A DNA stretch of 64,000 nt from positions 124,001 through 188,000 of the forward strand of contig WHVD01000093.1 of NCBI GenBank assembly GCA_015178975.1, read 5' to 3'. A model generated the notes under the pieces. The model made no database searches. It was given only the letters and a program-made list of their open reading frames with translations, and was not told where the DNA came from. Both the position numbers and the translations under genes were made by a program. Shown in pieces: positions 13,520-55,617 of the stretch (positions within the stretch are counted from its first letter, which is position 1; each line of letters starts with the position of its first letter). Source of the DNA: Hysterangium stoloniferum. Taxonomy: Eukaryota > Basidiomycota > Agaricomycetes > Hysterangiales > Hysterangiaceae.

Positions 13520-15074
13520 TGTGATGTATTAGCCTTATTTTAATACTATTTTCCGAAAAAGGAGCCCAATGCTCTATCAAAATGTGCAAGTACTCAATTC
13601 ACTGCAAGGTAAAATAATTTAAGTATTTGATATTAATCAGTGGCAGCCTGAATAGACTTAGAACCCCTGAAGTCAAGAGTTTACTTGAATATATGCACCC
13701 TACTTTGCAAAGAAGGTTTTGAGAGCTGCTTGTGCAAGCTTGTTCTTTTTCTGTAAAAACACTACTAAAATATGAATAACAATTCACTGATTCTGAAACT
13801 AGATTCAACTTCGATTCTAGCTAGTTTATATATATTTTATACTATTTATCAAACAGTAAAAATATTAATAAACAGATCAAAAGATTAGATATAGAATAAA
13901 ACACTATTTGGCTAATATATGCTTTATTTACACTAACCTACAGGGTCTACTGTGATACTAACTTATCAGGATCTTAATATAGTCTTAAGGATTCTGAAAG
14001 AATATTCTCAGTATTTATTTATGCCAAAAACCGGGTAGAAATTAGAATATATGTATTCCTATTCTCAATATAACCTAATATATTTACTACTTAAATTGAT
14101 AACCAACTACTCAACTAGAGGTGGATTAGTAATAAAGGATAGCCAGCTACTCAACTAAGAGGTGGCAAAAAGGGAACAGTTGATATGTTTATTTATTTAT
14201 TTATTGATTGATAACCAACAGCTCAACTAGAGGTGGTTAAGGGATTCTGGGTTAGCTTAGGTCAGCAGCTCAACTAGAGGTGACTAAGTGTATGTATGTA
14301 TTTGTCCAACAGCCCAATTAGGGGTGGAATATAACTGCTGCTGCGGTGGCACACTGATGTGGTGTAGTAAATGTGTTAAAATGAGTTAAAATGAGTTATA
14401 TTTCAGTGGTGGAGCAGAGCTCCTTATATACAGTAAAATCTGAGACATGGGAGAATGTTCTAGCTACTTGTTTTACCTATTTTTAGCTATTTTACCTGGA
14501 ATCTGCTGGAATATTCCAGGAGTTTCTGCTACTTTCCATTGTAGCATATATGCTGATGTAATGTTCTCGCGCATCGCGAAGTTGCTGAGTTTTGTGCGCG
14601 CGTGTTGATTACTTAATTTTCCCGCGCGTGTCGCGCTTGTGACAAGTCGTTGCATTTTGTGACAACGTTCACTTGTTGTGATGACAGTCACTTGTTGTGA
14701 TGAAGGTCACCATTGTGACGAATGTCACCGTTGTGACGAATGTCACCATTGTGACGAATGTCACCATTGTGACGAATGTCACCATTGTGACGAATGTCAC
14801 CTTTTGTGACGAATATTCCCGTGCATTGTGCAATCAATAAGTGCCAGAAGGCCGACTTCGAAGATTTTTAGTTAAAAAAGAATAAACAGTAGAATTTCGA
14901 TAGTTCTCCCAAAATAAATCATAAAAATATGAAATAAATTGTAAAAATCAGGTTAAATTCAGGAGAGTATTGTACAATAATTTCGTCGCAATATAAGTAC
15001 ATTTGAACTTGTTTTTATCAATTTGTTTAGGGGGAGATTGGTTAAAAATCGGAAAAACCTAAAAATACATAACA
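13520..15074 (+). repeat. Solo LTR, family E (1.55 kb)
   Basis: TGTGATGTATT…AATACATAACA with perfect 5-bp duplication GCGAT (13515-13519 and 15075-15079). Near-identical to 28797-30319. It contains repeated AACTCAACTAGAGGTGG-type blocks (14100-14330) and an 18-bp GTGACGAATGTCACCATT array (14700-14815). Inserted in the Copia RNase H. Confidence 0.9.
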
Positions 15075-20213: not shown

Positions 20214-23200
20214 ATGAAACCCAGGACGCGATCCAAGACTACCGAAGCATTGAGTTCTACAGCACTCCAATCCATGGCTCCCATTCCATCACCAAGAGTT
20301 ATTTGGCCATTGCAAATTCCAGTTTCTCCTTTGACCAAAACTTGAAGAGCTATGATGCCTTCAATTCGAGAACCTGAAGAAGTTCAAGAAGAACCGATCT
20401 TGCTAATTCAAGAATCCGAATCCCCTTTAACGCCTTTGTCCAAATCTCCACCTCCCGAACCTGTTACGTCTGAAGATGAAACAATGTTACAACATTTCAG
20501 AGATGCGCTCGGAAAAGTATTGAAGGACCAGATGTCTTCGAAGGAGACTGAAATCACAGTGAATAAGCCCAAAGAGTTTACTGGAGAAGAACCTTCGATA
20601 TTGAAGAATTTTATCACTCAATGCGAAATGGTCTTTCAATCTTGACCAAAATCGTTTGAATCCAATCAATTGAAAATTATGATGGTAACTTCGTATTTCC
20701 AGAAAACAGCTCAAGAGTGGTGGCAACCTTTTCTATTAAATCCCCCAATTCCTCCGCCATCTTTCCTTGTGGATTATCTCGATTTTCTAGATGAATTATA
20801 TGCTCAGTTTGGAGAAATTGATGCAGAAGGAGAAGCCAAAGAAAAACTCAATAATCTTCGAATGAGAGCTCATCATCATGTGGCAAAGTATTCAATTCAA
20901 TTTACAAGTCTTGCTGCTCAAACTCGATATGATGAATTTGCTTTACGATGACGATTTTATAAAGGACTTCCAAATCAAATAAAGGACGAAATAGTGAAAC
21001 TTCAAGTTCAGCCTGAAAGTTTTGCCAAACTGTGAACGGCTGCCCTTTGACTTGATTCTTATTATTGGATGCGAGAGAATAAACAACAACGTGAAACAGA
21101 ATCAAGTTCGACTCTGCGAAGATTTGAAAGAAGACAATCAACGATGCCTATGACTTATCCTTCGACATCACGAACACCTTCAACTTTAAAACCGACAACT
21201 TCGACTTCAAGAACATTTAGGCCTTCGACTCAAGCAAAACCATCTTCGACAATTTTAGGACCTGATGGACGATTACTTCCTGCTGAATGAGACAGAAGAT
21301 TTAAAGAAGGGTTATGTATATTATGTGGAGAAAAAGACCATTCAGTGAGGGATTGCCTGAAAAGAAAAACTCGTCAAATTGCAAAAGGATGAATCGTTGA
21401 AGTCCAAGATTCGACAGCTCAATCCGACCAGTCAAATCAAACATCGAATGTTAAATCGGAAAATTGAAAAGGGATACTCTTCAGGCATGTGAAGAGTATC
21501 GAAGAAAACTCGATCATGCCGAAAAAGATTCCTGTGTAATATTATGAGCAGTAACAATTTCTGATTCTTTAATTATGAACTTAAATCGAAAAAAATTCCA
21601 AAAATGAAAGCATTAATTGATTCAGGATCTAGTCATCTTTTTATGGACAAAACGTTTGCACAACAAAATAATCTATCTTTTGACCAATTGAAAAATTCGT
21701 TATCATTAAAATTAATCGACGGATCAACTCTGACATCAGGACAAATTACGTATACGACTACATTACAAGTTTATTTTCCATCTGGGCAAATTCAAGAATT
21801 ACAATTCTTTTTAACTAATCTCGACTCATCTTGTCAAGTGGTATTAGGACTCAACTGGCTGAAGCAATACAATCCTGCGATTGACTGGCGATCTGGCTGT
21901 ATATCATTCAAACCTACTTCGACACCTTCAACAAATCTGAATCTGATTCAACCGTCAATCAAAATGTTATCGGAAGAGAAGCATGCTTCAACTTTGGCGA
22001 GTCATTCATTGACATCTGAGAAAATCCGTGAAGAATCAAAATCCGAGACTGTCAATCCAAATATCAACATAGTCAATCAGAAAACTTTCTTATGAGCTGC
22101 AAAAGCAAAAGACTCTCAACCTTTGTGGTCTTTATTCATGATGAATCTTTTAAGACTTGTAAGGCCTCTGGTGCAAAAACTATGACTTCGACTTCATTCG
22201 ACATACCAAACGTTCTGACTGAATATTCCGACTTCTCAGACATTTTTGACAAAAGGGAAGCTGAAGCTTTACCTCAACATTGAAGTTATGATCATGCTAT
22301 CCCATTAGAAGAAGGAACTACTCCACCTATGGGTCCAATCTATTCATTATCTGAGACAGAACTTCAAGTGTTACGAGAATATCTCCAAGAGAACCTTTCA
22401 AAGAAATTTATTCGATTGTCGCAATCTCCTGCTGGTGCACCAATTTTATTCATTAAGAAAAAAGACAGAAGCCTACGACTTTGCGTCGACTATTGAGGAC
22501 TTAGTAAAATCACATGGAAAAACCGATATCCACTTCCTTTAATTCCAGATCTTTTGGATCAACTTCAAACGGCGAAATATTTTACGAAAATCAATCTCCG
22601 AGGCACCTATAATTTAGTTAGGATTGCTCCAGGTGATGAGTGGAAAACAGCCTTTTGGACTCGATATGGATCTTTCGAATATTTGGTTATGCCTTTTGGA
22701 CTATGCAACGCTCTGGCAACTTTTCAACAATTAATGAACGAAATATTTTCAGATTTACTTGATATTTGGGTAATTATTTATCTCGATGATATACTAATAT
22801 TTTCTGACAATCTCAAAGAACATTTATGACATGTTCGAGAAGTTCTTCGACGACTTCGACAAAATCGATTATTTGCAAAACCTGAAAAATGCGAATTTCA
22901 CAAAACCAGTGTCGAGTTTCTAGGATATGTTATTTCCCCTCAAGGTGTATATATGGACAAAGAAAAATTCAAAGTTATTCAAGACTGGCCCGAACCACAA
23001 AAAGTCTGCGACATTCAATCATTTTTAGGATTCGCGAATTTCTATCGAAGATTTATTCCAAGTTATTCTGAAATTGTTTTACCATTGACTCGACTTACTT
23101 GAAAAAAGGTTCAATGGGTCGACATGCATTTAACTATTTGAAAAAAGAATTTACTACAGCTCTGATTTTAATTCATTGGAATCCAGACTACAAACCTATA

Positions 23201-28796: not shown

Positions 28797-30319
28797 TAGC
28801 CTTATTTTAATACTATTTTCCGAAAAAGGAGTCCAATGCTCTATCAAAATGTGCAAATACTCAATTCACTGCAAGGTAAAATAATTTAAGTATTTGATAT
28901 TAATCAGTGGCAGCCTAAATAGACTTAGAACCCCTGAAGTCAAGAGTTTACTTGAATATATGCACCCTACTTCGCAAAGAAGGTTTTGAGAGCTGCTTGT
29001 GCAAGCTTGTTCTTTTTCTGTAAAAACACTACTAAAATATGAATAACAATTCACTGATTCCGAAACTAGATTCGACTTCGATTCTAGCTAGTTTATATAT
29101 ATTTTATACTATTTATCAGACAGTAAAAATATTAATAAACAGGTCAAAAGATTAGATATAGAATAAAACACTATTTGGCTAATATATGCTTTATTTACAC
29201 TAACCTACAGGGTCTACTGTGATACTAACTTATCAGGATCTTAATGTAGTCTTAAGGATTCTGCAAGAATATTCTCAGTATTTGTTTATGCCAAAAACCG
29301 GGTAGAAATTAGAATATATGTATTTCTAATCTCAATATAACCTAAAATATTTATTACTTTAACTGATAACCAACAACTCAACTAGAGGTGGATTAGTAAT
29401 AAAGGATAGCCAGCTACTCAACTAAGAGGTGGCAAAAAGGGAACAAGTTGTTTGTCAGAAGCTCAACTAGAGGTGACAAGGGGGTAGGATTATTACCAGA
29501 AGCTCAACTAGAGGTGGCAAAGGGATCCTGAGATAGCTTAGGTCAGCAGCTCAACTAGAGGTGACTAAGTGTTTGTATATATTTATCCAACAGCCCAACT
29601 AGGGGTGGAATATAACTGCTGATGCAGTGGCACACTGATGTGGTGTAGTAAATGGGTTAAAATAAGTTATATTTCAGTGGTGGAGCAGAGCTCCTTATAT
29701 ACAGTAAAATCTGAGACATGGGAGAATGTTCTAGCTACTTGTTTTACCTATTTTTAGCTATTTTACCTGGAATCTGCTGGAATATTCCAGGAGTTTCTGC
29801 TACTTTCCATTGTAGCATATATGCTGATGTAATGTTCTCGCGCGTCACGAAGTTGCTGATTTCGTGCGCGCGCTGATTACATAATTTTCCCGCGCGTGTC
29901 GCGTTTGTGACAAGTCGTCGCATTTTGTGACGACGGTCACTTGTTGTGACAACAGTCACCGTTGTGACGAAGGTCACCATTGTGACAAATGTCACCATTG
30001 TGACAAATGTCACCGTTGTGACGAATGTCACCGTTGTGACGAATGTCACCTTTTGTGACGAATATTCCCGCGCATTGTGCAATAAGCACCAGAAGGCCGA
30101 CTTCGAAGATTTTTAGTTCAAAAAGAATAAACAGTAGAATTTCAATAGTTCTCCCAAATTAAATCATAAAAATATGAAATAAATTGTAAAAATCAGGTTA
30201 AATTCAGGAGAATATTGTACAATAATGTCGTCGCAATATAAGTACATTTGAACTTGTTTTTATCAATTTGTTTAGGGGGAGATTGGTTAAAAATCGGAAA
30301 AACCTAAAAATACATAACA
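28797..30319 (+). repeat. Solo LTR, family E (second copy)
   Basis: 1523 bp, nearly identical to 13520-15074, perfect duplication TATTC (28792-28796 and 30320-30324). Contains the same GTGACGAATGTCACC-type array at 29940-30060. Confidence 0.9.
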
Positions 30320-30324
30320 TATTC

Positions 30325-31771
30325 ACATGACATTTCAAACTCTGACAATGACAAAATGTGATGTAAAATAATCACGCATTATCAAGGCAAAATATATATT
30401 TATATATTATTATATTTATAATTAACTAAAAGTAAATATAATAACTATATAATAATATCAAACTGGCCACCTGGCGCTTATTACACAATGCATGGGAAAA
30501 TCGTCACAATGGGTGACAGTTGTCACAAGGGCACGCAACAGTCACAAAGGCGCACAATGGTCACAAAGGTGCACAATGGTCACAAAGGTGCGCAATGGTC
30601 ACAAAGGTGTGCAATGGTCACAAAGGTGTGCAACGGTCACAAAGGCATGCAACAGTCACAAAGGTGCACAATGGTCACAAAGGCACGCAATGGTCACAAA
30701 GGTGTGCAATGGTCACAAAGGCACGTGATGGTCACAAAGGCACACGATGGTCACAAAGGCACACAACAGCCACAAAGGCGTGCAACAGTCACAAAGGTGC
30801 ACAACAGTCACAAAGGCACGCAACAGTCACAACATGTGACAGTCACAAGATGCGAAGGGTACATGCACAGGCATGAGAGCATTATGTCGTCATGTATGCT
30901 ACTGCAGAAAAAACTGGAAACTCCTGGAACATTCCAGTGGCTTCCAAAGGAACAATAAATAATAAGTACAAATAGTAGATAGAATATTGTAGAATATTCT
31001 ATAAGATTCTAGAATGTTCTATTATGCCAAGAAGATTCTATAATGTCTTAGAAGTAGTTAGAACCTTCCACAATGCTCTAGAAAATTCTAGAAAATTCTA
31101 AATGACATCATTCCTCCCAGAATGACATCATTCAATCTTCTAGAATCTTCTAAATGTCTCAGACTAAAATGTATATAAGGAGCTCAGCTCCAGCCTTGAA
31201 TAGAACATTTATCATATCATCTCATCAACCCACCACATCTGTGTGTCACTGCAGCAAGCAGCCTACTCCACCCCAATCTGGGCAGTTGGACATCTAATTC
31301 CACCTCTATCAGAGCTGTTGGAAACCCTTGCCACCTCTATCAGAGTTGTTGGCCCAATCAGATCCCTTGTCACCTCAATCTGAGTTGTTGACTTTTATTT
31401 GTTCCCCCTTGCCACTTCTTAGTTGAATAGTTGGCTTTTATATATTATTTCCACCTCGGTTAGAGTTGTTGGTTATCAACCAATAATATATAAACAATCT
31501 TATACTATAGTCACCTCTTAATTGAGTACTGATTATTAGTTTTCTTTACATTGTTATTTGTAGTCTAAGACTTCAGTCACCTCTAGTTGAGTAATTTGAC
31601 TGTTTATTACATTGCAAATAATCCCTGTTCCATTGCTCATTTATTGTGAATCAGTAAAGCATATTCACATAAATAAATACTGAGAATATCCTTGCAAGAT
31701 CCTTAAGACTACATTAAGATCCTGATAAGTTAGTATCACAGTAGACCTTGTAGGTTAGTGTAAATAAAGCA
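30325..31771 (-). repeat. Reverse, diverged family E LTR copy
   Basis: From about 30475 (CGCTTATTACACAATGCATG) to 31771 the sequence is the reverse complement of family E, including the reversed CACCTC…GAGTTGTTGG blocks (31300-31600) and the AGTAGACCTTGTAGGTTAGTG block (31740). It holds an expanded 19-bp array (30520-30845) where the other copies have an 18-bp array. Confidence 0.75.
30520..30845. repeat. 19-bp minisatellite (GTCACAAAGGTGCRCAATG)
   Basis: About 17 units. Since 19 is not a multiple of 3, all three plus frames cycle through the same 19-residue repeat and all remain open (up to 156 codons). No other evidence supports coding. Confidence 0.88.
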
Positions 31772-39944: not shown

Positions 39945-41240
39945 TGTGATGTATCAGCATCATCTCATAATATTCTCTTAATTTTCTGTGGATTATTTAA
40001 TATTCTTTCAAATTTATTGTATTTTTATTATATTTTTATTGTGAAAAATAGGCCTTATTCCTTTTAACTTTGCATAAATAATAGCATATATGGACTCATA
40101 TTATGCTATTATATCTTAGTTAATTTATTATAATTTTTAACTAATTATTTATATTTTATTTACTTAGTTATTACCTTTCGGCACTTTGCTGCAGCCTAGT
40201 TTGTGCATTTTTGGAGTCATGTGACTTATTAGATAAGCCTCCGGTGTCGGGATGTCACAAAAGTCACGAATGTGACTACCCGAGTCACACAAGTCACGAA
40301 CGTGACTACCAGAGTCATTATTAGATTCCACCGACTCATCGTTTGCTTCCATCCCAGGACTGCAGCCTTGAACCTTCATGTTCAAGCAAGAGGTTAGAAC
40401 CCTTGTCTCAGAGAAGGGAATCACATGATAAACAAAGGGTAAATAATGAGTAGAATATGAGGTCATTATGATCTCACTAATGACCTCATAAACTAAATAG
40501 TTAGCTAATCATTGAGTTATCACAATGTATATAAGGAGGGCTAAGTTTCCAATAAAATAATCTATCTCACACATATTTTACAGTACAGCACAGAAGCTTA
40601 CCTCATCATCCTAAGGACAATAATAGCCTTAGTCTGATACACTCACTGCAAGCACCTACACTTGCAGCATCTTGAATCTTTGTCAGCAACTCTTGGACTT
40701 AGCTAATCATCTAAGTTCCCCCAGCCTCACAGCTACCTTTAGGCTTATTAATTAGATAATAAACCTAATAAGTATCTAAGTATCCTTACTGAAATCCCTG
40801 CCAATACTAGATTACTCAAGGCCCAGCCCTAAGTTTATTGAATTAATCAAGTATAAGCACTCAGATAATCCAATACATATTATTTTCTCTATTAATAAAT
40901 TATTTAACACCTTGTTAAATAACTATTAATAGTTACAAATAAGCATACAAAAATCCGAAGCTCTTATATCAAGTCTCTGCCAAGTTACTGCACATGTATT
41001 CAGCTTCCAGCCCCTATTCTCAAGGAATAGTTCTTTTATTTCCTAAAAGAGTCATATATTGTTCTTTTGAACCTTTCAATAATCAAAATAAGCATTGATT
41101 TGAGTTGTTTAAGCTTAATAGCGCAGCTCATTAATCTATCAGTATTTAAATTACTGGACCTTTGCTTGTTTTATTGTTGAAGCTCTGTGACACTATAGCA
41201 TATATTGAGCTATCTAAGAGAATCCCCTGAATACATTACA
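39945..41240 (+). repeat. Solo LTR, family G
   Basis: 1296 bp, TGTGATGTATCAGC…GAATACATTACA, duplication GTTAA/GTTAT (one mismatch). Ends resemble family E. Holds two 30-bp GTCACGAATGTGACTACCCG-type units (40255-40315). Confidence 0.85.
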
Positions 41241-43137: not shown

Positions 43138-44829
43138 ATACGCTTCATATGAAGAGTGGGATCCTCAGAAAATACCAAAATGTCATCCAAATAGACTATA
43201 ACACATACATCAAGCATGTCAGAAAATATATCATTAACAAAAGATTGAAAAGCAGAAGGGGCATTGGTAAGGCCAAATGGCATAACCAACCATTCAAAGG
43301 ATCCATAGTGAGTTTGAAAAGCAGTTTTCCATTTGTTGCCCTCAGCAATTTGGACCAAATGATAGGCATGTTTAAGATCTATTTTGGCATAAATCCGAGC
43401 TTTCAGTGGGGCATCAAGTAAGTCAGTAATGAGCAGAAGTGGGTACTTATCTTTCTGTGTTATGGAATTTAAACCTCAGAAATCGACACAAAGTCAAAGG
43501 GAACTGTCCTTTTTCCTAACAAAAAGGATGGGTGCTCCATATGGAGACTTTGAGGGACAGATAAAACCTACTGTATTGACAGATGTTCATCCAAGAACTC
43601 CCAAATAGACAAAAGTTCTAATTGGGACAACAGGTAAATAGGTCCTAACAGAGGGTTTGAACTGGGCTCAATATCAATTTTTTAAGCCATAAGGCCTATG
43701 TGGTGCAAGCCAGTCAGCTTTTTGCTTACTGAAAATGTCCATGAAATCATGGTATTTTTTGGGAACTCCTTCCAGGTCAGCTTTTAGCTTGGATAATTCT
43801 GGAGTCACAAAATGACCAGATGCTTCATCAACTTTTAAGCTGATCAAAAAACACTGTGATCTGTCCAGCTTACTCACCCTAACAAATGCCAAAGCATTGA
43901 TGAGAGAGATTTTTGGAGGTTTGGAGGTTTCGGTAGAAGCTGGAGGTGCCATTGAGACCAAATAGGCTCTGGCCAGAGTAGATGCTGCAGGAGAAACAGA
44001 AGTGTCGGGAATCCAGAAATTAATACTGCCCAATACCCAGTCAATCAATGGATTATTAGGTGAGCCAGTTGTATCCAAGAATGATTGAACAGCTAGAGTC
44101 CAACTGTATTACAAAAAAGTAACCATTTGGGATGTTCCACATGGGAACTGGATAGACATGTCGCAGGCTTGAGTAATTGCCATATTGCTAGTGCCATCAA
44201 ACAGATGCAAGGAAATTGCGGGAACAGAATGGAGTTTTAGATTATGTTTCGTGGCAAAAGTGATATCTACAAAACAGTGTGTGAGCCAGAATCTATCAGA
44301 GCTCGGAACACTAAATTTCCAAGAAAGTCAGAAACAAGTTTTACAAATAGTGAGTTGGGATTAGAGAGTGTGGACACATTGAGATGGATAATCTCAGAAA
44401 CACAGAGAGAGTCAACACAACCCTCTGTCTGTGCAGATTCTGGAGGGTTGCTTACTCTTTTTTCGACTCTGTGGCAGGTTTCTCCTTGGACATTGTAGTC
44501 ATGGTGGAAGTTGCCATGTGAGCCTTGAAAGATTTTGACTTAATGGTACAATTGGAAACCTTGTGTCTGCCTTTTCCACAAAAAAGACAGAGGTCATTAT
44601 CCATGTACCATTGTTTCTCCTTCAGAGTGAGTTTACCATTGGAACCCAACAAGTGGGAAATGTCAGGTTTATTGGAAGTTGGCTGTTTTTCCTTATTGGA
44701 TTTCTTGTCTTTCTTCTGATCAGAATTTGATTTGCCAGTATTAGTGCCAGTGTTGCTGGTATTATTGCCTGAGTTATTGCCGGAAGACTTGCTAGTCAAC
44801 ACCTTGTTCCCTTGAGAACGTTCCATTGG

Positions 44830-46162
44830 ATTCTCTCAGGAAATCTCAGCTTTTCGTTCCCAATAGCAGGCATTGGATGTCTGAGCTTTAATCCACATGA
44901 GTTGGAGAGTTTTCAGCTTTCCATCTTTGCTGAAAAGCATTCTTCTATTGTTTCTCTTCTCAATGAGGAGCATTCCCATTGTCAAATTCAAGCTAGGACT
45001 GGCCTGGGGAAGGGTACTATTGGCAGGATCAGTAGGGAGGTAGAGGAGGATAAGGAAAATCATCCTGGTGGCCATTCTTCCAAGCTTTCCCCTTATGATA
45101 AACAGTCAATTATCTGTCAAATCAGCTCTGGGAAGCTTGACAATGCTGTCCAAGCCACCCAATTCATAAATTCCATCATATCTACCTCTGTCACTCCTCA
45201 GACTGTTAGGAATGTGTTGAAAGAAGCTGGCTTTAGGTCAGCAACAAAGAAGAAAGTCCCTATGCTCAAGGGGTCTCATTGTCAGCAACATCTAAAGTTT
45301 GCCCAATACCATGAAAATTGGACTATGGAGAACTGGAAGAGGGTGTTGTGGACTGATGAGACAAAAATCAATAGGATTGGGTCAGATGGGAAGGTATATG
45401 TTTGGAAGCAACAAGGGAAATCAGTATCAGACAGGACCACCACACCAACTATCAAACATGGAGGGGGGAATAACTTGATGGTTTGGGGGTGTATGGGCTG
45501 GAATGGGGTGGGGAAGCTGATAGAGGTGCAGGGGAACATGGATGCAGTATAGTATTGTGAGATTTTGGAGGAGGGAGTGGAAGAGAGCATTGAAAGTTTG
45601 GAGATGGCTGAGGATAACTGGTACTTCCAACAGGACAATGATCCAAAACATACCTCAAAAAAGGCAGACCAGTGGTTTTCTGACAATAACATAATTCCCA
45701 TGAAGTGGCCTGCCTAATCCCCTGATCTAAATCCCATTGAACACCTCTGGCAACACCTCAAGGCCAAACTCCAACAATATGACATACCACCCAAAGGAGT
45801 ACATGAATTATGGGACAGGGTGGCAAAGGAGTGGACTGAAATACCACCAGAGACATGCCAGAAACTAATAGAAAGCATGCCTAGGAGGATACAGGCAGTT
45901 TTAAAGGCAAAGGGGGGTCATACAAAATATTAGATTGTAAAATAATAGAGGGTTCAAAAAACTGCCCCAATGAGTGATTATTTTGTTTGATTTATTGAGC
46001 AATGAGTTTTGATTGGAATCACATAATTTCTTAAGTTGGTAGATAGCCAACATGTTCTAGTATATCATGTGAATTCTTCAGAATTTTTGTTGATGTCATT
46101 CCTTTACACAATATCAATCTTTCTAAAATGCACAAACATTGGGGCAGTTTTTTGATCCACTG
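44830..46162 (+). mobile_element. Tc1/mariner transposon, left end lost, transposase broken
   Basis: The transposase reads from about 44930 (HSSIVSLLNEEHSHCQIQA) through a helix-turn-helix-like RTGLGKGTIGRISREV to the catalytic motifs VLWTDETKINRIG (D1, about 45345), WYFQQDNDPKHTSKK (D2, about 45620) and SPDLNPIEHLW (E, about 45720), ending GGHTKY-stop (45934). The D2-E spacing is 34 residues (DD34E). Two nonsense codons interrupt it: TAG at 45549 and TAA at 45715, the latter in WPA-stop-SPDLN where Gln is usual. The right end is CAGTGGATCAAAAAACTG (reverse complement) next to TA at 46163-46164. No left inverted repeat is seen; it and part of Gypsy F gag were deleted together. Confidence 0.85.
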
Positions 46163-48704: not shown

Positions 48705-48952
48705 TGTGATGTATCAATATTATCTCATAATATTCTCTTAATTTTCTTTGAATTATTTAATATTTTCTCGAATTTCTATTGTATTTTTATTATGTTTATT
48801 GTGAAAAATAGGCCTTATTCCTTTTAACTTCGCATAAATAATAGCATATATGAACTCATATTATGCTATTATATCTTAGTTAATTTATTATAATTTTTTA
48901 ACTAATTATTTATATTTTATTTACTTAGTTATTACCTTTCGGCACCTTGCTA

Positions 48953-49640
48953 CACTGGAGGCACCCCAAGATTTTTGGATTTGCAAAACCTTCAGAAAAT
49001 CTTGCTATTTGGCCAAATTTGCTAAGCATTCTTTGAACTGGAAAAACTGTTTGAAAATCTTGGGTTTTAGTAGGTTTTTCTGAGGACAAAAATTGTATCT
49101 GAAAACCCTAAAAATGGTGATCAGGAAATTCTAAGGAAACATTGTTGGAAATAGCCTATTTTCTGTGGATTTTCTAAATAGGAAAATTCTTAAAAAACCC
49201 TGGGTTTTGTTAGGGTTTTTCCACCCAACAGAATTCTATGAAAAATGTAATAATTTGCCTAGAGAAATCAATTGAAAACCACATATTTCTACTCAATTTT
49301 TCTGCTCAGGGAATTGGGTGAAAACTGTAATTTTTTGCCAGGAAAATCTTGTGCCAACACAAAGTTTTGTTAATGTTTTGTCAAGGGGAAAACCATAATA
49401 AAATTGACAATTTAATTATATGGGAAATCATTGAATAATTATAGATTTCAATAAGATTTTCCTTGACCACAAACACTATGGAAATTCAAAAAATGTGTTG
49501 GTGAAATCTTGAAGAAATGAACAATTTCACATGAGTTTCTTAAAGGTTTTTCAAGATGAGAAACCTTGAACTGATTTTTCCTGATTGAGCATGATTCACA
49601 ATTGTTTGGAATGGTACAGTGGGATTCACAAATAATTAAG
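48953..49640 (+). repeat. Left inverted arm of palindromic element
   Basis: AT-rich arm with recurring AAAATCTTG and GGTTTT…CC motifs; near-identical in inverse orientation to 53827-54510 with scattered substitutions. Confidence 0.9.
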
Positions 49641-51790
49641 AGGATTGTTTTAGATTCAGGTAGATTCTTTTAGATTCAAATAGATTCAAATAGATTCAGA
49701 TAGATTCTTTGAGATTCAGATAGATTCTTTGAGATTCAGATAGATTCTTTGAGATTCAGATAGATTCTTTGAGATTCAGATAGATTCTTTTAGATTCACA
49801 TAGATTCAGATAGATTCACATAGATTCACATAGATTCACATAGATTGACATAGATTCACATAGATTCACATAGATTCAGATAGATTATTTTAGATTCTTT
49901 TAGATTCACATAGATTCACATAGATTCACATAGATTCATTTAGATTCAGATAGATTCAGATAGATTCAGATAGATTCAGATAGATTCAGATAGATTCAGA
50001 TAGATTCAGATAGATTCAGATAGATTCAGATAGATTCAGATAGATTCTTTTATATTCACATAGATTCAGATAGATTCTTTTAGATTCAGATAGATTCTGT
50101 TAGATTCAGATAGATTCAGATAGATTCAGATAGACTCTTTTAGATTCAGATAGATTCTTTTAGATTCTTTTAGATTCACATAGATTCAGATAGATTCTTT
50201 TAGATTCAGATTGATTCTTTTAGATTCACATAGATTCAGATAGATTCTTTTAGATTCTTTTAGATTCACATAGATTCATTTAGATTCAGATAGATTCTTT
50301 TATATTCAGATAGATTCTTTTAGATTCACATAGATTCAGATAGATTCTTTTAGATTCAGATAGATTCTTTTAGATTCAGATAGCTTCTTTGAGATTCAGA
50401 TAGATTCTTTTAGATTCAGATAGATTCTCTTAGATTCACATAGACTGTTTTAGATTCACATAGATTCTTGTAGATTCACATAGATTCAGGTAGATTCTTT
50501 TAGATTCAGATAGATTCTTTTAGATTCACATAGATTCAGATAGATTCAGATAGATTCAGATAGATTCAGATAGATTCAGATAGATTCTTTTAGATTCACA
50601 TAGATTCAGATAGATTCTTTTAGATTCAGATAGATTCTGTTAGATTCAGATAGATTCAGATAGATTCAGATAGACTCTTTTAGATTCACATAGATTCAGA
50701 TAGATTCTTTTATATTCTTTTAGATTCTTTTAGATTCTTTTAGATTCTTTTAGATTCAGATAGATTCTTTTAGATTCAGATAGATTCTTTTAGATTCAGA
50801 TTGATTCTTTTAGATTCACATAGATTCAGATAGATTCTTTTAGATTCTTTTAGATTCACATAGATTCATTTAGATTCAGATAGATTCTTTTATATTCAGA
50901 TAGATTCTTTTAGATTCACATAGATTCAGATAGATTCTTTTAGATTCAGATAGCTTCTTTGAGATTCAGATAGATTCTTTTAGATTCAGATAGATTCTCT
51001 TAGATTCACATGGACTGTTTTAGATTCACATAGATTCTTGTAGATTCACATAGATTCTTTTAGATTCAGATAGATTCACATAGATTCAGGTAGATTCTTT
51101 TAGATTCAGATAGATTCTTTTAGATTCACATAGATTCAGATAGATTCAGATAGATTCAGATAGATTCAGATAGATTCAGATAGATTCAGATAGATTCAGA
51201 TAGATTCACATAGGTTCAGATAGATTCTTTTAGATTCTTTTGGATTCAGATAGATTCAGATAGATTCTCTAAGATTCAGGTAGATTCAGTGAGATTCACA
51301 TAGATTCAGATAGATTATTTTAGATTCAGGTAGATTCTTGTAGATTCAGATAGATTCTTTTAGATTCACATAGATTCAGATAGATTCATTTAGATTCAGA
51401 TAGATTCTTTTAGATTCTTTTAGATTCACATAGATTCAGATTGATTCATTTAGATTCATTTAGATTCAGATAGATTCTTTTAGATTCTTTTAGATTCAGA
51501 TAGATTCAAATAGATTCAAATAGATTCAGATAGATTCAAATAGATTCTTTTAGATTCAGATTGATTCTTTTAGATTCTTTTAGATTCACATAGATTCAGA
51601 TAGATTCTTTTAGATTCTTTTAGATTCATATAGATTCAGATAGATTCTTTTAGATTCACATAGATTCAGATAGATTCAGATAGATTCTCTTAGATTCACA
51701 TAGACTCTTTTAGATTCACATAGATTCTTTTAGATTCACATAGATTCAGATGGATTCTTTTAGATTCAGATAGATTCTTTTAGATTCACC
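49641..51790 (+). repeat. 10-bp satellite TAGATTCNNN, left array
   Basis: About 215 units of TAGATTC followed by three variable bases (mainly AGA, TTT, ACA; also ATT, AAA). Units stay in exact 10-bp register for 2.15 kb with no net insertion or deletion. Blocks of units are themselves duplicated: 50200-50460 resembles 50790-51020. Confidence 0.95.
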
Positions 51791-53826
51791 CTAAACCATA
51801 AAAAAATCTAAGAGAATCTATATATCTGAATCTATGTGAATCTAAAAGGATCTGTGTGAATCTATCTGAATCTATCTAAATCTATCTGAATCTATTGGAA
51901 TCTAAAAGAATGTATGTGAATCTAAAAGAATCTATGTGAATCTAAAAGAGTCTATGTGAATCTAAGAGAATCTATCTGAATCTATCTGAATCTATTTGAA
52001 TCTATCTGAATCTAAAAGAATCTAAAAGAATCTATCTGAATCTAAATAAATCTATCTGAATCTAAAAGAATCTAAAAGAATCTATCTGAATCTACAAGAA
52101 TCTACCTGAATCTAAAAGAATCTATCTGAATCTATGTGAATCTAAAAGAATCTATCTGAATCTATGTGAATCTAAAAGAATCTATCTGAATCTATGTGAA
52201 TCTAAAAGAATCTATCTGAATCTATGTGAATCTAAAAGAATCTATCTGAATCTACAAGAATCTACCTGAATCTAAAATAATCTATCTGAATCTATGTGAA
52301 TCTCACTGAATCTACCTGAATCTTAGAGAATCTATCTGAATCTAAAAGAATCTAAAAGAATCTATCTGAATCTAAAAGAATCTATCTGAATCTAAAAGAA
52401 TCTATCTGAATCTAAAAGAATCTATCTGAATCTAAAAGAATCTATCTGAATCTATGTGAATCTAAAAGAATCTAAAAGAATCTATCTGAATCTATGTGAA
52501 TCTATGTGAATCTAAAAGAATCTATCTGAATCTACAAGAATCTACCTGAATCTAAAAGAATCTATCTGAATCTATGTGAATCTAAAAGAGTCTATCTGAA
52601 TCTATCTGAATCTATCTGAATCTAACAGAATCTATCTGAATCTAAAAGAATCTATCTGAATCTACAAGAATCAATCTGAATCTAAAAGAATCTATCTGAA
52701 TCTAAAAGAATTTATCTGAATCTAAAAGAATCTATCTGGATCTAAAAGAATATATGTGAATCTAAAAGAATCTATCTGAATCTAAAAGAATCTATGTGAA
52801 TCTAAAAGAGTCTATGTGAATCTATGTGAATCTAAAAGAATCAATCTCAATCTATGTGAATCTAAAAGAATCTAAAAGAATCTTTATGAATCTAAAAGAA
52901 TCTTTATGAATCTAAAAGAATCTTTATGAATCTAAAAGAATCTTTATGAATCTAAAAGAATCTTTATGAATCTAAAAGAATCTTTATGAATCTAAAAGAA
53001 TCTTTATGAATCTAAAAGAATCTTTATGAATCTAAAAGAATCTATGTGAACCCTAAACCCTAAACCCAAAAGAATCTATGTGAATCTAAGAGAATCTATC
53101 TGAATCTATTTGAATCTATTTGAATCTATCTGAATCTAAAAGAATCTAAAAGAATCTATCTGAATCTAAATGAATCTAAATGAATCAATCTGAATCTATG
53201 TGAATCTAAAAGAATCTATCTGAATCTAAAAGAATCTAAAAGAATCTATCTGAATCTAAAAGAATCTAAAAGAATCTATCTGAATCTAAAAGAATCTATC
53301 TGAATCTATGTGAATCTAAAAGAATCAATCTGAATCTATGTGAATCTAAACGAATCTAAAAGAATCTATCTGAATCTAAAAGAATCTAAAAGAATCTATC
53401 TGAATCTAAAAGAATCTTTATGAATCTAAAAGAATCTATGTGAACCCTAAACCCTAAACCCAAAAGAATCTATGTGAATCTAAAAGAGTCTATGTGAATC
53501 TAAGAGAATCTATCTGAATCTAAAAGAATCTAAAAGAATCTATCTGAATCTAAAAGAATCTAAAAGAATCTATCTGAATCTAAAAGAATCTATCTGCATC
53601 TAAATGAATCTATCTGAATCTATGTGAATCTAAAAGAATCTATCTGAATCTATGTGAATCTAACAGAATCTATCTGAATCTACAAGAATCTACCTGAATC
53701 TAAAATAATCTATCTGAATCTATGTGAATCTCACTGAATCTATCTGAATCTTAAAGAATCTACCTGAATCTAAAAGAATCTATCTGAATCTAAAAGAATC
53801 TACCTGAATCTAAAACAATCCTCTTA
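51791..53826 (-). repeat. 10-bp satellite, right array (inverted)
   Basis: The same satellite as GAATCTANNN. In exact register from 51841 to 53050, then shifted by short telomere-like CCCTAAACCCTAAACCC tracts at about 53051-53068 and 53446-53462; a single CCCTAAACC sits at the centre (51789). Includes a local TTTATGAATCTAAAAGAATC higher-order repeat (52880-53040). Confidence 0.95.
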
Positions 53827-54510
53827 AATATTTGTGAATCCCACTGTACCATTCCAAACAATTGTGAATCATGCTCAATCAGGAAAAATCAGTTCAAGGT
53901 TTCTCATCTTGAAAAACCTTTAAGAAACTCATGTGAAATTGTTAATTTCTTCAAGATTTCACCAACACATTTTTTGAATTTCCATAGTGTTTATGGCCAA
54001 GGAAAATCTTATTGAAATCTATAATTATTCAATGATTTCCCATATAATTAAATTGTCAATTTCATTATGGTTTTCCCCTTGACAAAACATTAACAAACCT
54101 TTGTCTTGGCACAAGATTTTCCTCGCAAAAAACTACAGTTTTCACCCAATTCCCTGAGCAGAAAAATTGAGTAGAAATATGTGGTTTTCAATTGATTTCT
54201 CTAGGCAAATTATTACAGTTTTGATAGAATTCTGTTGGGTGGAAAAACCCTAACAAAACCCAGGGTTTTTTAAGAATTTTCCTATTTAGAAAATCCACAG
54301 AAAATAGGCTATTTCCAACAATGTTTCCCTAGAATGTCCTGATCAACATTTTTAGGGTTTTCAGATACAATTTTTGTCCTCAGAAAAACCTACTAAAACC
54401 CAAGATTTTTGAACAGTTTTTCCAGTTCAAAGAATGCTTAGCAAATTTGGCCAAATAGCAAGATTTTCTGAAGGTTTTGCAAATCCAAACATCTTGGGGT
54501 GCCTCCAGTG
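53827..54510 (-). repeat. Right inverted arm of palindromic element
   Basis: Inverse copy of 48953-49640, ending CTTGGGGTGCCTCCAGTG. Confidence 0.9.
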
Positions 54511-55617
54511 CTACAGCCTAGTTTGCGCATTTTTGGTGTCATGTGACTTATTAGATAAGCCTCCAGTGCCGGGATGTCACACGAGTCACGAATGTGACGA
54601 CCCGAGTCACACAAGTCACGAATGTGACTACTCGAGTCACACAAGTCACGATTGTGACTACCCGAGTCACACAAGTCACGAACGTGACTACCCGAGTCAT
54701 TATTAGGTTCCGCCGACTCATCGTTTGCTTCCGTCCCGGGACCGCGGCCTTGAACCTTCATGTTCAAGCAAGAGGTTAGAACCCTTGTCTCAGAGAAGGG
54801 AATCACATGATAAACAAAGGGTAAATAATGAGTAGAATATGAGGTCATTATGATCTCACTAATGACCTCATAAACTAAATAGTTAGCTAATCATTGAGTT
54901 GTCAAAATGTATATAAGGAGGGCCAAGTTTCCAATAAAATCTTATCACACACACATTTGCAGCACAGCACCAGCTTATTTAATCATCCTAAGGACAATAA
55001 TAGCCTTAGTCTGATACACTCACTGCAAGCACCTACACTTGCAGCATCTTGAATCTTTGTCAGCAACTCTTGGACTTAGCTAATCATCTAAGTTCCCCAG
55101 CCTCACAGCTACCCTTTAGGCTTATTAATTAGATAATAAACCTAATAAGTATCTAAGTATCCTTACTGAAATCCCTGCCAATACTAGATTACTCAAGGCC
55201 CAGCCCTAAGTTTATTGAATTAATCAAGTACAAGCACTCAGATAATCCAATACAATTTATTTTCTCTATTAATAAATTATTTAACACCTTGTTAAATAAC
55301 TATTAATAGTTACAAATAAGCATACAAGAATCCGAAGCTCTTATATCAAGTCTCTGCCAAGTTACTGCACATATATTCAGCTTCCAGCCCCTATTCTCAA
55401 GGAATAGTTCTTGTATTTGCTAAAAGAGTCATACACAGTTCTATTGAACCTTTCAATAATCAAAATAAGCATTGATTTGAGTTGTTTAAGCTTCATAGCG
55501 CAGCTCATTAATCTATCAGTATTTAAATTACTGGACCTTTGCTTGTTTTATTGTTGAAGCTCTGTGACACTATAGCATATATTGAGCTATCTAAGAGAAT
55601 CCCCTGAATACATTACA

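Follow-up and report, generated by a model that had tools for sequence, protein, structure and literature searches.

Whether a palindrome that consists largely of short tandem repeats is a mobile element, of what kind, and where its satellite originated are the questions raised by a locus in a 64,000-nucleotide stretch of the Hysterangium stoloniferum genome (C548:124001-188000, the whole of which is referred to here as the window). A prediction made from the sequence of the window alone (the original prediction) placed a palindrome with CACTGG ends and a CTA target duplication at 48953-54510, and these coordinates proved to be exact (Table 1). Comparison with the genome (111.1 Mb in 554 contigs; contigs and loci carry C and L numbers) indicates that the palindrome is probably a member of a non-autonomous foldback transposon family of the EnSpm/CACTA type, in which the subterminal repeats have grown into a satellite. 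Named proteins of H. stoloniferum, a basidiomycete in the order Hysterangiales, give the best matches to portions of a captured fragment (74% and 91%) and to a tnp2-type transposase (93% over 55%).

The window element and dispersal of its family

The arms of the window element, of about 688 bp each, differ from one another by 2.5%, and the interior between them is filled, as had been predicted, by two opposed tandem arrays (period 10/20, about 4.14 kb together), so that satellite repeats account for about three quarters of its length. This is a foldback structure, with long inverted arms carrying tandem repeats and little or no unique sequence between them. No stop-to-stop frame is longer than 73 amino acids and, judged by such frames, the element has no coding capacity, in agreement with the original prediction. 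When joined, its flanks align at 87% with a second copy of the long terminal repeat (LTR) across the insertion point (TTGCTACAGCC versus TTGCTGCAGCC), the gaps falling mainly in a tandem-repeat stretch away from that point. Because the joined flanks match this second copy through the insertion point, both the insertion and the empty site that had been deduced for it are established.

There are 227 genomic occurrences of the terminal sequence CACTGGAGGCACCCC and none of a reversed-letter control. A genome search with the 688-bp arm gave 513 candidates, and each of the 40 that were scored was a full-length match with 97-100% identity. Pairing by end sequence gives at least 45 copies of the satellite class, with lengths of 1.2-7.5 kb (median 4.5 kb) and a sum of 206 kb or about 0.19% of the genome, and leaves six ends unpaired. 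The input to the pairing was 89 listed ends with at most one mismatch, one with two and six partner ends; since the satellite-class ends were taken from 100 of 131 matches, the 45 pairs are a lower bound. Twenty of these pairs were read whole and 31 have the exact centre described below, the remainder being assigned by end sequence alone.

The 32 copies read whole were picked for exact ends (the window copy, L039-L058 and L059-L069) and comprise 20 satellite-class copies (3.0-7.5 kb), 11 miniature inverted-repeat transposable elements (MITEs; 364-377 bp) and L042 (3.9 kb). Identical 3-bp duplications flank all 32, and a longer duplication flanks none. Five further satellite-class copies for which both ends were fetched also have the 3-bp duplication (5/5), giving 37 of 37 exact-end copies. 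Among copies with imperfect ends, the short L003 has a duplication and the short L001 does not, so that the total is 38 of the 39 copies read at both ends (25 satellite-class, 11 MITEs and three others), with a chance expectation of about 0.018 per copy. An all-against-all comparison of flanks (300 bp per flank, 50 bp for MITEs) identified no insertion point common to any two of the 32 copies. Three copies (L049, L050 and L056) lie within or close to copies of a single dispersed repeat. The insertion site of L056 is present in unoccupied form in the left flank of L050 and is the second empty site after that of the window copy. In L055, the flank on one side is related to that on the other. These results show that the family is mobile and has dispersed to many different sites, and the genome search proposed in the original prediction as a check on mobility has thus yielded many copies with different flanks.

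Table 1. Features of the palindromic element and its empty site (window coordinates)
Feature	Position	Strand	Description
Whole element	48953-54510		5,558 bp; ends CACTGGAGGCACCCC / GGGGTGCCTCCAGTG; CACTGG...CCAGTG
Left target-site duplication CTA	48950..48952	.	direct repeat flanking the element
Left arm, class A	48953..49640	+	begins CACTGGAGGCACCCC; 688 bp
Satellite array A	49643..51788	+	10-bp units AGATTCNNNN; commonest tails AGAT, TTTT, ACAT
Non-palindromic centre TTCACCCTAAACCATAAAA	51785..51803	+	common to the family; 34 exact genome copies, control 0
Satellite array B	51828..53820	-	array-A 10-bp unit in opposite orientation; contains two (CCCTAAA)2 blocks
Right arm, class B	53823..54510	-	terminates in GGGGTGCCTCCAGTG
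Right target-site duplication CTA	54511..54513	.	direct repeat flanking the element
Second LTR copy, unoccupied site TTGCTGCAGCC	39945..40737	+	alignment with joined flanks

Superfamily assignment and source of the transposase

In fungi, EnSpm elements terminate in CAC..GTG and are flanked by 3-bp duplications (PMC12730594). Such termini are present as CACTGG..CCAGTG in the 32 copies, which were picked by those ends, and the family has both the 3-bp duplication and the short subterminal repeats of the EnSpm/CACTA type. The 8-10-bp duplication typical of Mutator-related foldbacks (Tm1 and Tetris) is absent. The family ends fit EnSpm/CACTA, the class assignment resting on the ends and the length of the duplication. 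The earlier description of the element as a foldback-type non-autonomous CACTA derivative holds for its ends, its 3-bp duplications and its foldback form; a transposase with these ends was not found near the listed ends.

The search for transposase genes gave 68 genome matches for Plavaka, 12 for PF02992 (10 over the cut-off) and 29 with a 467-residue local tnp2 protein as the query, of which 43, 7 and 20, respectively, are on contigs without a listed end. The listed ends come from the first 100 matches of each search for ends, out of totals of 227, 249, 131 and 166. Among the loci compared with these ends, no transposase was located between family ends. The CMC/Plavaka-type partner that had been suggested for the family is not supported, since the 17 kb around each listed end contain no Plavaka match and Plavaka ends do not fit: PlavakaA has TGT..ACA with a 2-bp duplication and PlavakaB has CATCA..TGATG with one of 2-3 bp (PMC12730594). 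Six Plavaka loci (L070-L075) are 97.8-99.8% identical over their shared parts, with frames of up to 719 residues, and are perhaps a recently active family.

Several observations weigh against the assignment to EnSpm/CACTA or against a binding function of the repeats. Of the 201 listed ends, not one has any of the 109 transposase matches (68 + 12 + 29, in overlapping sets) within 17 kb. Classical CACTA ends carry A as the fifth base, and the end found here is CACTG, with G in this position. The short copy L001 has a degenerate left end and is without a matching duplication. In addition, variation in the AGATTC core of the 10-bp unit is 1.4-3.7% per site, compared with 1.4-4.2% in the rest of the unit. 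The constancy of the core is not clearly raised, and the sequence thus bears no clear mark of selection on a binding site.

The element could alternatively be mobilized by another DDE transposase that leaves 3-bp duplications, for example a PIF/Harbinger-like one, as transposases of that kind leave duplications of this length, or a divergent Plavaka, the CAC..GTG termini then being coincidental. The lack of an EnSpm transposase with family ends near the listed ends would be in keeping with this, as would the 68 Plavaka matches, some of them near-identical copies, and the weak preference of the duplicated triplets for T-N-A (T in 17/32, A in 18/32). However, these triplets are of 21 different kinds among the 32 copies, with no fixed TWA, and it is the EnSpm elements of fungi that are marked by CAC..GTG in combination with a duplication of 3 bp, whereas the ends of PlavakaA and PlavakaB differ (PMC12730594). 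Mobilization by such an enzyme is thus considered to be unlikely.

In the preferred EnSpm/CACTA interpretation, an element of this superfamily would supply the transposase in trans, and this would recognize the ends and move the unit by a cut-and-paste mechanism. The arrays would be the element's own subterminal repeats, their number having risen within it through slippage or unequal exchange, and exchange between the two sides could now and then homogenize or invert parts of the arms. A protein might bind the 10-bp units, each of which is near one helical turn. In maize Spm/En the TNPA protein binds subterminal repeats (PMC2613891), and by analogy with plant CACTA elements and with Galileo (PMC3688188) the 10-bp arrays may be bound by the transposase.

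Growth of the satellite and copying of the palindrome

The A arms of L041, L049 and L051 differ by at most 0.2%, yet their B sides are 3,328, 4,623 and 3,218 bp, showing that array length changes rapidly within the family, although the array length of any single copy could be mis-sized in the assembly; the variable number of 10-bp units anticipated in the original prediction is thus observed. The arrays contain exact repeats as long as 647 bp at offsets of between 10 and 2,275 bp, with the largest offset in L050 (the arrays of which were divided by hand), which points to slippage plus larger tandem duplications.

Read inward from either end, the arrays share one orientation, as expected of the subterminal repeats of an inverted-repeat transposon, and they start about 650-700 bp from each end (later in L055, which has a nested MITE). 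Two relatives with arms 84-87% identical to those of the window element bear other 10-bp arrays at the corresponding subterminal place, with units GACTCTTTTG/GACTTTTTGC in L042 and an array of the GAGTCTAAAAGAGTTGCAAA type in L002. Because the relatives carry different 10-bp arrays in the same place, such arrays look ancestral, with replacement within lineages. This fits the earlier proposal that subterminal repeats expanded to fill the element.

Genome-wide, the unit triplet AGATTCNNNNAGATTCNNNNAGATTC occurs 9,535 times (control, 92). The 20 satellite-class copies read whole contain 4,188 triplets in 97.2 kb, from which 8,888 are predicted for the 45 pairs, and the six unpaired copies are able to supply the remainder. 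There is therefore no clear surplus that would indicate free satellite arrays, although a few small ones are possible given that this is a result of counting, and as far as the counts tell the satellite seems to be confined to the element. They give no sign of the seeding of new loci by satellites that had been suggested. These results also bear on whether the satellite was primary, that is, a genomic array that was caught between two transposon ends and spread later. Capture of a satellite by a CACTA element has been described in Chenopodium (PMC8978399); here, however, there is no clear surplus of triplets outside the family, the remainder of the window contains no unit triplet, 10-bp arrays of other sequence occupy the corresponding place in the relatives and the innermost arm of the window element already reads GATTCAC. 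A primary satellite is accordingly improbable. A bolder version of the preferred interpretation is that the element is a transposable satellite, in which array growth is coupled to transposition, each move, or its repair, resetting the unit number, and in which lineages renew their own satellite (GACTCTTTTG/GACTTTTTGC, then AGATTCNNNN) as a recognition platform for the partner transposase; this is offered tentatively, as a speculation with a minor share of the probability.

Blocks of (CCCTAAA)2 are present inside the arrays of the window copy (53051-53064 and 53445-53458), L039, L046 and L050 (four of the 20 satellite-class copies read whole) and have perhaps grown from CCCTAAACC of the centre.

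The non-palindromic centre ACCCTAAACCATAAAA joins the forward and reverse arrays in 19 of these 20 copies, L050 having lost it. Exact copies of its 19-letter form are found within the 45 pairs (31) and beside unpaired ends (three). This off-centre core gives every copy a direction and makes arms A and B distinguishable. In 18 of the 20 copies each arm resembles an arm of some other copy more closely than it does its own partner; with L055 set aside, the nearest foreign arm is 0-1.5% away and the opposite arm of the same copy 2.3-6.7%. In the exceptions, L047 and L056, the arms appear to have been exchanged or homogenized. L055 has its arms the other way round with respect to the centre, and a 375-bp family MITE is nested in one of them (element positions 535-909), which accounts for the apparent divergence of 11% in that arm. 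Two subfamilies can be distinguished, one with arms mostly about 2.5% apart (the window copy, L039, L044, L046, L050, L056 and L058) and one, comprising the remaining satellite-class copies read whole, with arms mostly about 6% apart. The separate identities of the arms and the retention of the centre show that one founder was copied as a whole palindrome.

Long palindromes and 10-bp arrays are difficult to assemble, and the palindromes or array lengths could in principle be artefacts of assembly. This is very improbable, since the arms within a copy differ by 1-7%, with class-specific differences common to several copies, and since the copies have different flanks, 3-bp duplications and one shared off-centre core. 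Dispersal by copying or recombination of host segments rather than by transposition, for which the proximity of certain copies (two within 18 kb on C80) and the dispersed repeat common to the flanks of L049, L050 and L056 might speak, is more improbable still given the precise ends and 3-bp duplications of all exact-end copies, the absence of a shared insertion point among the 32 and the two empty sites.

The family also includes relatives of other form. The MITEs, all 11 of which have 3-bp duplications, share the family ends and show 75-80% identity with the outermost 163-194 bp of the arm. In L042, two arms of about 1.39 kb, 97.9% identical, flank a unique core of about 1.16 kb. When the genome was searched with the 1,410-bp middle of L042, 89 matches were obtained, of which 40 are long (40 of the 70 candidates having been scored). 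A listed family end lies no more than 2.5 kb from 25 of the long matches, the distance being 1.1-1.5 kb in 21 cases. This middle occurs twice, as a mirror image, in elements of C2, C22, C442, C533, C146 and C172, and is also mirrored on C246 and C19 without a matching end pair among the ends listed. The translation of the fragment (from L081, 224-1788) is 42% identical over 97 residues to an HMG-box protein of Ramaria rubella, in an alignment that carries on from the final 18 residues of the box in that protein; the fragment itself contains no Pfam domain at the cut-off. Older palindromic relatives thus appear to have captured a fragment of an HMG-box gene, which is mirrored in both arms in several copies. 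On C81, an end (131150), a centre (132171) and the gene fragment (132596-133382) occur together, possibly as a chimera of the satellite class and the older class.

Longer relatives were considered as candidate autonomous elements. Copies of 6.4-8.0 kb (C22:44963-51371, C2:169497-176988, C146:567667-575472 and C533:443632-451661) seemed promising in length; they contain the mirrored gene fragment and none of the Plavaka or tnp2 matches. A 12-kb copy (C442:348569-360523) was rejected as an autonomous element, as no DNA transposase was seen in the 7.5 kb that were read; in these the fragment derived from the HMG-box gene is accompanied by additional blocks of short repeats and by a nested retroelement. 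The latter (C442:352.7-357.2k; L081 from about 2990 through L082) has reverse-transcriptase-like and tyrosine-recombinase-like frames and may be DIRS-like by reading of the translation. The end at L002 (C1:882700) was likewise rejected, since the 8.5 kb inward of it encode ABC-transporter-like and gag-like frames, again by reading of the translation; no second end was found within this distance with up to four substitutions allowed.

Comparison with known elements

Foldback arms that include 10-bp tandem repeats are also a feature of Drosophila FB, which resembles the Hysterangium element in this respect and is unlike it in its 9-bp duplications and other ends. The original prediction knew of no named element with such an architecture; however, Tm1, Galileo and Tetris are foldbacks with tandem-repeat arms, and this is an old, convergent kind of element (PMC3169594, PMC3573991, PMC4079207).

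Tm1, a Mutator/Foldback element of Meloidogyne, similarly has arms that consist mostly of short tandem repeats in variable number, variable arm lengths and MITE-like relatives, but its units are of 13-15 bp, its duplications of 9 bp and its transposase of the Mutator type, and its ends differ (PMC3169594); the Hysterangium element has 3-bp duplications, CACTGG ends and arrays of up to almost 4 kb on one side. Tetris/DAIBAM of Drosophila virilis is likewise a foldback with tandem repeats in its arms, a link to satellite DNA, a MITE with its ends and no known autonomous partner, but with 220-bp units, 8-10-bp duplications and free satellite arrays (PMC4079207), compared with 10-bp units, 3-bp duplications and free arrays undetected by counts in Hysterangium. 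Drosophila Galileo has long, internally repetitive arms with unit numbers that are independent on each side (PMC3573991), and its repeats hold extra transposase-binding sites (PMC3688188); it differs in belonging to the P superfamily, in its 7-bp duplications and in its units of about 210 bp in two or three copies (F subfamily) (PMC3573991, PMC3688188).

EnSpm/CACTA elements share the CAC..GTG ends, the 3-bp duplication and the short subterminal repeats (fungal, PMC12730594; soybean Tgmt, PMC2613891), in comparison with which the Hysterangium element has CACTG ends, no genes, a near-perfect palindrome and repeats that make up about three quarters of it. CACTA elements are also tied to tandem repeats in Jozin CACTA (PMC7320549) and the Chenopodium satellites (PMC8978399), but there the repeat is either a monomer of 40 bp derived from the tnp2 region or an array captured close to the 3' end, and the parts of these accounts considered here do not describe a palindrome. 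The literature searched, mostly by title and abstract opening, describes no CACTA-type foldback with satellite arrays and no such element from Hysterangium, and in the same scope yielded no foldback that has EnSpm/CACTA ends, is fungal or consists to three quarters of 10-bp satellite.

The family thus appears to add an EnSpm/CACTA-type member to this convergent kind, one that is fungal and extreme in its satellite content, and satellite DNA appears here to travel as the passenger of a transposon. Apparent confinement to the carrier contrasts with Tetris, the arrays of which have escaped (PMC4079207). Copies that share arms, centre and unit but not array length form a natural series for the rate of satellite growth and homogenization inside a transposon, and allow it to be asked whether repeated subterminal sites aid the transposase or are a mere by-product.

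Elsewhere in the window, tandem arrays rich in GTGAC/GTCAC (18-, 19- and 30-bp units) are located at 14676-14814, 29925-30063, 30499-30832 and 54576-54699, and one of these arrays sits in the LTR that hosts the palindromic element. Frames at 44812-45552 and 21604-22095 match HTH_Tnp_Tc3_2 and a retroviral-type aspartyl protease, respectively, and are the remains of other transposons.

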